From positions 3,947 through 39,095 of the forward strand of contig JAJQHZ010000005.1 of the NCBI GenBank assembly GCA_021199475.1: a DNA stretch of 35,149 bases, read 5' to 3'. The DNA comes from Lachnospiraceae bacterium (GTDB lineage: Bacteria > Bacillota > Clostridia > Lachnospirales > Lachnospiraceae). Shown here piece by piece: positions 23,995 to 26,731 of the stretch; the stretch's first letter is position 1; each line of letters opens with the position of its first letter. The notes under the pieces are model-generated. The model searched no databases and was not told where the DNA came from. It saw nothing but the letters and a program-made list of their open reading frames with translations. A program made the translations under genes and the position numbers.

Positions 23995-24023
23995 ACAATA
24001 ACACCATTCGAAATAGGTGTCAA
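23995..24023 (-). promoter_or_regulatory. Promoter of the amino-acid transporter operon
   Basis: Read on the - strand: a perfect TTGACA (24018-24023), a 17-bp spacer, then TATTGT (23995-24000). The structured element at 24033-24210 and its duplicated ATTTTT border begin 4 bp upstream of the -35 box. Confidence 0.82.
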
Positions 24024-24032
24024 ATCATTTTT

Positions 24033-24210
24033 GGTAATAGTTCAGAACAGCATCGAAAAGAAAAGACAGACTGTGCAGGTTTACCTGCTAAAGGCTGTAT
24101 TTTCTTTTCGGGATGGGCGGAACGCCCATCAAGCCTCAGACATATGACGCGTAAGCGGCATATAGCCTTCGAAGAAGGCGGTCTGTGGCCTGCTGTTCTG
24201 AATAATTACC
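24033..24210. mobile_element. 178-bp MITE/BOX-like element with four internal hairpins
   Basis: The ends are 20-bp inverted repeats (24033-24052 and 24191-24210), matching at 18 of 20 positions, from GGTAAT to CAGAACAGCA. Directly outside both ends is the same hexamer ATTTTT (24027-24032 and 24211-24216), as expected of a target-site duplication. Inside are four hairpins: 24054-24110 (CGAAAAGAAAA/TTTTCTTTTCG with an inner GCAGGT/ACCTGC), 24112-24130 (GATGGGCG/CGCCCATC), 24141-24164 (CATATG with near-matching arms) and 24165-24179 (GCCTTC/GAAGGC). No coding frame of note. A fragment of its right end recurs at 26694-26716. The whole could fold as a multibranched cloverleaf. It could be a non-autonomous transposon or a structured RNA. 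Confidence 0.8.
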
Positions 24211-24321
24211 ATTTTTGAACGATACCGCAATTCCGGACCGATTGAACAGGAGGCGGCTTTCGCCGCAAACCCTCCCTGCCCGGCCCCGCGCATCAAACTG
24301 AACCGGCCAGGCTGCGCAAAA

Positions 24322-24837
24322 TTATCTGCTCAGGACAGCCGCAGCACACAATAATCCCCCTGCCACAAGTGCGTCCATCGTACTATTCGTCGTAAAATAC
24401 TGCTCCAGCCAAAAGCAGTAGCACCAAAACAAGACCGTCGCCAGAACAAACGCCGCCAGACGCCATATATAAGGAAGAAAACGGGACCGCCCCTGCCCGT
24501 CGCTTCCTTGCATGATCACACCGCCGTCTATTGCTCTTCCGTTTACTGTTCTGCCGTCTATCACTCCGCCGTTTATTGCTCTTCCGTCTATCGCTCTGCC
24601 TTCTATTGCTCTGCCGTCTATCGCTCCGCCGTTTTCCCGACCCGTCGGTGAAAAGTCAAACATAAGCATCAGAACGCTCAGCAAATCTGCCATCCCAAAC
24701 AGCAGAAAGCAGGTCGAGCGCACAGTTCCCAGTCCCGCTCTTACGATTGGCTGATATTCCAGGGAACAGGCCGCCAGCAATACAGCCAGCGCCGCCAGCC
24801 AGATTCTGTACACTGGCTTTGCTAATTTCATATTCAT
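24322..24837 (-). CDS. Unknown membrane protein with five-residue repeats
   Basis: A 171-residue protein I do not recognise. About four hydrophobic segments are visible (roughly 11-27, 40-60, 121-143 and 155-169). Between the second and third lies a run of eight five-residue units (70-109) of the form G-[R/G]-[A/V/T]-[I/V]-[D/E/N], encoded by a 15-bp tandem repeat. The flanking residues are hydrophilic, so the repeats form a loop between helices. This is not the A(D/N)LXX pentapeptide-repeat fold. The ribosome site is weak (GGGATG), which lowers confidence in the start. It lies 136 bp after the thiamine pyrophosphokinase gene, probably in the same transcript. Confidence 0.65.
   Translation of the reverse strand: MNMKLAKPVYRIWLAALAVLLAACSLEYQPIVRAGLGTVRSTCFLLFGMADLLSVLMLMFDFSPTGRENGGAIDGRAIEGRAIDGRAINGGVIDGRTVNGRAIDGGVIMQGSDGQGRSRFLPYIWRLAAFVLATVLFWCYCFWLEQYFTTNSTMDALVAGGLLCAAAVLSR
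24511..24630. repeat. 15-bp tandem repeat inside the membrane-protein gene
   Basis: Eight units of 15 bp; on the + strand each reads approximately GTCTATCGCTCTGCC with a few substitutions. Because the unit is a multiple of three, gain or loss of copies keeps the reading frame. Confidence 0.88.
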
Positions 24838-26414: not shown

Positions 26415-26439
26415 CCTCGCAAAAAATTGATTTTAATCA

Positions 26440-26622
26440 TTCCCAGAGTGCCGTTTCCCACCATCTGACTCCTGGCAAGGCCAGGTGGGTAACCGCAGCA
26501 ACGGTGTCTGCCTTCCACTGCAAACGGAGGCCTGGCATCGACCGAAGCGATATAGGAATCCCATTTAAAGTAATTGCAGGTTCAACACAGCAGGAGTGTC
26601 GAACACCCCAGGAATTTATGTT
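26440..26622 (-). ncRNA. ssrS: 6S RNA-like regulatory RNA
   Basis: About 180 nt without a credible protein. It starts 7 nt downstream of a consensus promoter and is followed by a T-run terminator. The ends form a closing stem: TCCTGGGGTG (near the 5' end, complement of 26604-26613) pairs throughout with CACTCTGGGA (complement of 26441-26450) using G-U pairs. The interior resembles clostridial 6S RNA as I recall it: a GTTCGAC segment, CCTATATCG in the middle, then GGTTACCCACCTGG and GCCAGGAGTC. 6S RNA mimics an open promoter, binds sigma-A RNA polymerase and dampens transcription in stationary phase. The identity rests on pattern memory and structure; a search with the Rfam 6S model would decide. 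Confidence 0.8.
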
Positions 26623-26693: not shown

Positions 26694-26716
26694 CCGGTCT
26701 GTGGCCTTCTGTTCTA
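26694..26716. repeat. Fragment of the 24033-24210 element
   Basis: CGGTCTGTGGCC followed by CTGTTCT matches the right end of the 178-bp element (24179-24200) at about 20 of 21 positions. The similarity stops within the inverted-repeat arm. It lies between icd and the 6S-like RNA promoter. Confidence 0.65.
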
Positions 26717-26731
26717 AAAATACAAACAGCC

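Follow-up and report, generated by a model that had tools for sequence, protein, structure and literature searches.

What is the hairpin-rich repeat that lies next to a promoter-like site in the window, that is, in the whole stretch of 35,149 nucleotides of Lachnospiraceae DNA analyzed here: a mobile element, a structured RNA or an ordinary part of the promoter region? The explanation that we consider rather probable as a whole is a MITE mobilized by an IS66-like transposase, with a fold under selection and with some copies used as RNA.

Structure of the Locus

The element occupies positions 24034–24209 of the plus strand (176 bp, GTAAT...ATTAC). As had been claimed in the initial annotation, it is gene-less, and no ORF of at least 80 aa overlaps it. 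It has matches in the genus and is bordered by a perfect 8-bp target-site duplication, CATTTTTG, at 24026–24033 on the left and 24210–24217 on the right. The ATTTTT hexamers initially reported at the flanks are the inner part of this repeat; thus, the duplication exists but is 8 bp long. The G+C content (47.2% vs. 51.9% in the window) makes the element only slightly AT-richer.

The predicted fold consists of an outer stem plus three arms, one of them branched, all described here on the plus strand. The terminal inverted repeats, GTAATAGTTCAGAACAGCA (24034–24052) and TGCTGTTCTGAATAATTAC (24191–24209), match at 17/19 positions and pair as the 5′ and 3′ strands of the outer stem P1, the latter assigned by the fold and by two-sided changes. 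The earlier figure of 18/20 holds for 24033–24052 with 24191–24210, which takes in one base of each duplication. Arm P2 (24054–24110) is a long hairpin with apical GCAGGTTTACCTGC. Arm P3 (24112–24130; GATGGGCGgaaCGCCCATC) contains in its loop, in other copies, a palindromic insert of ~51 bp. The branched arm P4 (24133–24189) carries hairpins P5 (24142–24163) and P6 (24165–24179). P2, P3, and P4 are defined by both fold and covariation, and the four internal hairpins initially proposed (P2, P3, P5, and P6) are present in this prediction.

The window copy lies antisense between two minus-strand genes. On its left is an ABC transporter operon (minus strand) with a permease, an ATPase and a family-3 solute-binding protein (Pfam), which we infer to be of the amino-acid type; on its right is an ORF of 171 codons (24322–24837, minus strand). 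The promoter-like site of the transporter (23995–24023, minus strand) was located by pattern search and comprises a −35-like TTGACA (24023–24018), a 17-base spacer and an extended TATTGT (24000–23995). It is 2 bp from the left duplication, and the element lies 10 bp upstream of the −35-like box, at the distance originally stated. All three relatives read at this locus (L325, L326, and L327) contain the motifs TGTCAA and ACAATA, and the site is also found in relatives without the element. Since one such pattern was found against 0.8 expected in shuffles, the site is to be taken as a pattern only. An effect of the window copy on the transporter operon is possible, yet putative only.

Other repeats and RNAs occur nearby. 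A different short dispersed repeat, with matches in many places of the genus, lies just right of the element (24250–24297), and a degenerate tandem repeat of CTATTGCTCTGCCGT-like units is found inside the 171-codon ORF (~24526–24635). The dispersed fragment mentioned in the initial annotation is real and is placed at 26696–26718 (plus strand); it is a degenerate 3′ end of the MITE family with 2/23 mismatches to the element, and shuffles gave none. It sits ~80 bp upstream of the 5′ end of a 6S RNA (26436–26617, minus strand; Rfam RF00013, 59.6 bits).

Copies and Distribution of the Family

The proposed search of the own genome and its relatives returned 24 match rows in the own genome, including the window copy, one antisense self-match and several half-copies that stem from copies with an insert. 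Matches were also obtained for 17 of the 21 genus members, the richest of which gave 54 rows. The 241 merged element intervals correspond to 209 distinct ones. Copies with duplications are 175–176 bp, 225–227 bp (with one insert) or 64 bp long. When named genomes were scanned for the arm-4 motif, at least 118 stretches matched, and all among the matches listed came from Lachnospiraceae or Clostridiales MAGs.

The fold model, built from 38 diverse copies, hit 14 family genomes, the own among them, out of 120 that each represented a genus. Of 295 genomes drawn from the order, it hit 3: the own genome, a second member of the family and a genome from a different family. Strict filters, by which weak matches are lost, were used in both searches. 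The sequences differ considerably in members from other genera, several of which are bordered by 8-bp duplications of their own. A single high-scoring copy was seen in another genus (G266:C18:72598-72773; 193 bits) and one copy in another family of the order (G313:C99:10625-10797; 79 bits); both may be due to either horizontal transfer or contamination.

No Rfam family reached its gathering score over the element, and the five hits obtained up to E 10 were all far below their own gathering scores. One exact end-plus-interior pattern had no hits in viral contigs. The literature searched, with most subscription journals outside its reach, contained no description of this MITE family.

Variants of the family were also observed. 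The end pattern matches at least 163 times in genome G049, where two or more interiors with different folds share the end GTAACAGTTCAGCC (L191 1746–1910), as if one mover spreads several structured elements. In G071, a near-perfect palindromic derivative of 95 bp (L184 1129–1223) consists of the outer stem and arm P2 alone.

Mobility of the Element

After length and flank filters and the removal of repeated contexts, 149 copies were tabulated. A perfect 8-bp duplication borders 31 of them (one being common to two orthologous copies), whereas shuffling of partners predicts 0.29; a further 7 have one mismatch and 111 have more. The target sites are rich in AT; on the element plus strand, T occupies position 4 in 23, position 5 in 20 and position 6 in 25 of the 31 cases.

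The search for empty sites with a single target, which had been suggested at the outset, gave two exact cases in sister genomes. L314 lacks the L061 copy, and L281 lacks the L314 copy; in both cases, the flanks are 97–99% identical and the target is present once. At the window locus, genome G151 (L325) has the single-copy target CATTTTTTG at the orthologous site and reads GTGTCAAATCATTTTTTGAACC where the window reads CATTTTTG, the element and CATTTTTGAACG. This case is less exact than the other two, because identity there is about 75–82%. In L326 and L327, the same promoter-like stretch is followed by no element. Three more candidates (L218, L100, and L259) were artifacts of nested units or diverged flanks and were not counted.

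The insertion at L314 4444–4619 falls in the first codons of a short ORF (MIKFEWDENKNQ...), presumably BrnT-like, that is uninterrupted in L281. In three other cases (L045/L074, L096/L100, and L057/L294), the element occupies the same intergenic region of two related species in opposite orientation. L057 and L294 carry different perfect duplications; therefore, at least there, the element was inserted independently into one gap.

The mobility of the family is close to certain, and the element is, with hardly any doubt, a non-autonomous DNA transposon (MITE) that duplicates 8 bp on insertion. The window copy appears relatively recent. The alternative, in which the repeat is a vertically inherited, non-mobile structure of the promoter region, is contradicted by the copy number, the 31/149 duplications and the empty sites, and is refuted; the initial view of a mobile repeat is thus upheld.

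A Conserved Branched Fold

Positions 24027–24216 fold with −96.3 kcal/mol on the plus and −91.8 on the minus strand. The means of shuffled sequences are −48.0 and −41.5, respectively (z −10.5 and −12.0), and none of the 200 shuffles was as stable on either strand.

Copies were then folded and examined for covariation, as the initial annotation had advised. In 38 diverse copies, 95.4% of the pair cells are standard, two-sided changes affect 39 of 63 pairs (shuffle mean 15.3; slid structures 9–14) and covariation is 0.240 versus 0.107. Two-sided changes are found in 9/12 pairs of the outer stem P1 and in 19/22 pairs of helices 2 and 3. The interior is thus a conserved branched fold, very probably selected as a structure and not only for its inverted ends. 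The covariation favors the reading of a putative structured RNA.

Persistence of the Fold in Old Copies

Copies located at the same site in two species were compared in 15 cases at 12 loci, with both flanks and orientation checked (L007/L223 included). The three opposite-orientation pairs mentioned above, the non-orthologous L080/L282 and L080/L219, and L099/L005, in which only one flank matches, were left out. In these comparisons, 27 pairs changed on both sides and are still Watson–Crick, whereas single changes led to 33 Watson–Crick/G-U, 8 Watson–Crick/A-C and 19 Watson–Crick/other mismatch combinations. Eighteen of the 27 compensated doubles sit at three loci (L003/L248, L004/L087, and L007/L223), and gene conversion may be their source. 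As the compensated doubles occur in old copies at shared loci, the fold seems to have been kept after insertion. Old copies with no recognizable duplications still keep it as well.

When 154 of 164 copies were compared with their nearest neighbors, G-U exceeded A-C (131 vs. 81). This asymmetry was considered as a proof of RNA-level selection and was downgraded after a control at unpaired sites, where A>G outnumbers T>C by an equal factor; the residual C>T versus G>A difference is 65 to 46 (p 0.09). Because much of the G-U excess follows the substitution bias, a function at the RNA level is plausible but unproven. Thus, the structure is either selected or corrected, and may act as RNA.

Nested Units and Tandem Half-Copies

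In the fetched DNA, 64 occurrences of the ~51-bp palindromic unit were counted, 54 of them with at least two element motifs nearby. According to a crude pattern, 32 units are placed in P3, 10 in the branched arm and 7 in P2, and 15 are unassigned. An element copy of 328 bp holds three of them (L110 674–1001). A further copy with the unit nested in its hairpins was noted at L111 750–1026, as were a few apparently free-standing units (L236 near 69, L252 near 7852). The unit is possibly a second mobile repeat.

Of 90 old copies, 28 have a direct self-match within 150 bases downstream; among 21 intermediate and 38 young copies, there is one such case each. Upstream, the numbers for old, intermediate and young copies are 0, 0, and 1. 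Inverted self-matches downstream are found in 2 old, 1 intermediate and 0 young copies, and none exist upstream. Among the 28 matches, L228 and L250 were rejected as artifacts that the nested unit produces, and L305 is a repeat of the element's 3′ portion. The other 25, from ~20 loci, derive from the 5′ half; most begin no more than ~10 bases from the element end, and they look like tandem copies that were truncated. The predicted fold of L012 shows an additional pairing between the 5′ strand of the element and a stretch further downstream. The downstream copy at L004/L087 and L007/L223 comprises an entire second arm with T-rich sequence behind it; between the relatives, this arm varies in the way that the arm inside the element varies.

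Gene Context of Old Copies

For 62 old copies, genes are near on both sides (30 copies had no near gene and 16 were skipped). In sense orientation, 21 are flush with the upstream stop codon, versus 6 in antisense (p 0.006, a value that overstates the difference because orthologous copies were counted apart). Orientation as a whole is even (++ 21, −− 22), and a ++ gene-orientation bias first seen in 71 copies (35 vs. 19) vanished in the larger set.

For example, in three genomes (L088, L092, and L009), the element is located between a class-I glutamine amidotransferase gene, the last codons of which fall inside the element, and a TrpD-like gene (Pfam, L092). In two genomes (L098 and L101), it separates PheS- and PheT-like genes (Pfam, L101). 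The amidotransferase gene before the element we take to be TrpG-like. The upkeep of the fold by matching mutations suggests that hosts tolerate old copies, or use them as folded RNA, beside their genes, and the family is probably in part domesticated.

The Putative Transposase

Among the genomes searched, no transposon with the exact MITE ends was found. A transposon of 2267 bp in G014 (L107) is bordered by a perfect 8-bp duplication (ACTATTTT); it has the ends GTTACTATTCAC and carries one gene of 102 codons and one of 520. The product of the 520-codon gene matches PF03050 DDE_Tnp_IS66 (E 1.9e-10) and scores 140 bits against NF033517, under the cut-off of 180. By its sequence, this transposon would be a divergent, IS66-like member of the IS66 family. 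A relative in G071 (L319) has ends GTTACTTTTCAC..., with 20/20 bases alike, and is without a duplication.

The ends of IS66 begin with GTAA. The window family combines GTAA ends with an 8-bp duplication, as for an IS66-derived MITE, and the subfamilies of G112 and G087 begin with GTTACTRTTCAC (GTTAC). In two of the three G087 copies printed, 14/14 end bases equal the right end of the G014 transposon. The window subfamily begins with GTAACNNTTCAG; its commonest right end agrees with GTTACTATTCAC in 10/12 bases, and the two ends of the window copy agree in 7/12 and 9/12.

Relatives of the G014 transposase were found at E 0.001 in 7 of 15 chosen genomes, several of them weak. Among 47 genus members, 5 gave matches, full-length in G014 only. 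At the same threshold, G000, G009, G012, G013, and G020 gave no match, and the window's own genome has none. The ordinary IS66 copies of G000, inspected as possible parents, had no convincing matching ends. A search by paired element ends for an autonomous parent in G009, G049, and G071 gave just further MITE copies among the matches listed. An end pair of 1.96 kb at G009:C2 turned out to be two separate mini-copies around host genes and not a parent transposon. The literature searched for IS66 paired with MITEs or for its ends contained no such family.

Mobilization in trans by an IS66-like transposase is the best guess, since the ends resemble, imperfectly, those of an IS66-like transposon in a relative. 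The mover is likely IS66-like, although unproven, and the similar ends and the duplication length make it moderately probable that the transposase belongs to a divergent IS66-family lineage. A less probable, still considerable alternative is that another transposase family (e.g., IS1595, IS256 or ISL3, which also give 8-bp duplications) moves the window subfamily. It would accommodate the lack of an IS66-like relative in G000, G009, G012, and G013 (G009 having at least 143 matches to the element end pattern all the same) and the differences between the G014 transposon ends and the window copy at 3/12 and 5/12 bases. The ends of L107 and L319 are, however, of the same type as those of the family, and the assemblies are fragmented. 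If the IS66-like mover is confirmed, gut bacteria would supply the IS66 family with many non-autonomous partners.

Proposed Mechanism and Alternative Explanations

According to the preferred reading, a transposase acting in trans would recognize GTAACNNTTCAG-type ends and insert the 176-bp element into AT-rich, T-tract sites, duplicating 8 bp. Insertions in sense just behind stop codons, some within operons, would be retained, and their fold may be transcribed as a 3′-UTR or intercistronic hairpin cluster. Such a cluster could protect or process the mRNA, or modulate read-through, as reported for BIME, ERIC or Correia elements. By analogy with those repeats, a transcribed role of this kind for the retained copies has slightly less than an even chance; the window copy by itself has no demonstrated effect. 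In a stronger and quite improbable version, the IS66-like transposase would spread a ready-made RNA regulatory module, a mobile switch, through Lachnospiraceae operons. A host factor would then recognize the four-armed fold in mRNA, copies behind stop codons would be domesticated as intercistronic control elements (trpG-trpD, pheS-pheT) and the tandem half-copy would add an alternative hairpin or terminator.

The fold might also matter only as DNA: transposition could be helped by hairpins or cruciforms that form on single-stranded DNA, or template switching could repeatedly correct one arm by the other. Such switching at imperfect palindromes would produce covariation with no RNA function, and quasi-palindrome mutation is known in yeast (PMC3820800). 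The small residual strand asymmetry, the short loops of most arms, the compensated doubles among copies close to their relatives (33 in 94 copies) and the seemingly perfected downstream hairpin of L012 agree with this. The outer stem, however, covaries in 9/12 pairs with strands more than 100 bases apart, old copies lacking recognizable duplications keep the fold, and the old copies show the sense stop-flush bias, so that a DNA-only role is in our view rather unlikely. Even less likely is a cis-regulatory RNA (riboswitch or attenuator) gone mobile, in which the downstream 5′ copy competes for the outer stem and forms a terminator. The one-sided self-matches (28/90 old copies downstream, 0/90 upstream; 25/28 from the 5′ half) and the second full arm before T-rich sequence at L004/L087 and L007/L223 would fit it. 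Against it, the downstream copies lie mostly within ~10 bases of the element end, like truncated tandem copies, there is no common downstream pathway (trp, pheST, and others), and the predicted fold of L087 keeps both hairpins with no exchange.

Comparison with Known Systems

The interiors of MITEs are usually regarded as filler between the ends. Here, the interior is a branched fold; compensated mutations preserve it across genera as well as in copies that are fixed at shared sites, and a second palindromic unit is nested in the hairpins of a MITE with a conserved fold. Selection on the inner structure of a transposon is now testable, be it for spread, for harmlessness in transcripts or for host use.

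The element belongs to a new MITE family that is analogous to pneumococcal BOX; kinship with BOX is not claimed, and the two are set apart by their descriptions. BOX consists of boxA-boxB-boxC modules with extensive base pairing and an optional inner boxB (PMC3049150). Both are multi-copy and heavily base-paired with an optional inner module, which here is the ~51-bp unit in 0–3 copies. In contrast to BOX as described there, the inner module is here placed in up to three hairpins and not in a tandem array and, by description alone, the ends (GTAAC), the hosts and the duplication length are different.

ERIC and Correia elements are similarly TIR-bordered MITEs, mostly intergenic, with transcripts that fold; those of ERIC contain an RNase E site and those of Correia are cut by RNase III (PMC10969869). 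By the description there alone, the present family differs in its four-armed fold, conserved inner arms, 8-bp duplication and occurrence in Lachnospiraceae. QMITE2 of Coxiella burnetii is of similar size, has a very stable predicted transcript fold and 7–9 bp direct repeats, and is located primarily in 3′ untranslated regions, as given in the same source (PMC10969869); on that description alone, the difference is that the fold is here backed by covariation across genera. Of the IS66 family, ISPpa5a and ISPpa7 have 8-bp repeats (PMC3281130), the duplication length found here, and an IS66-like transposon with similar ends is present in G014. Unlike these, the MITE carries no transposase and has only terminal bases in common with them, and the G014 transposon begins with GTTA.
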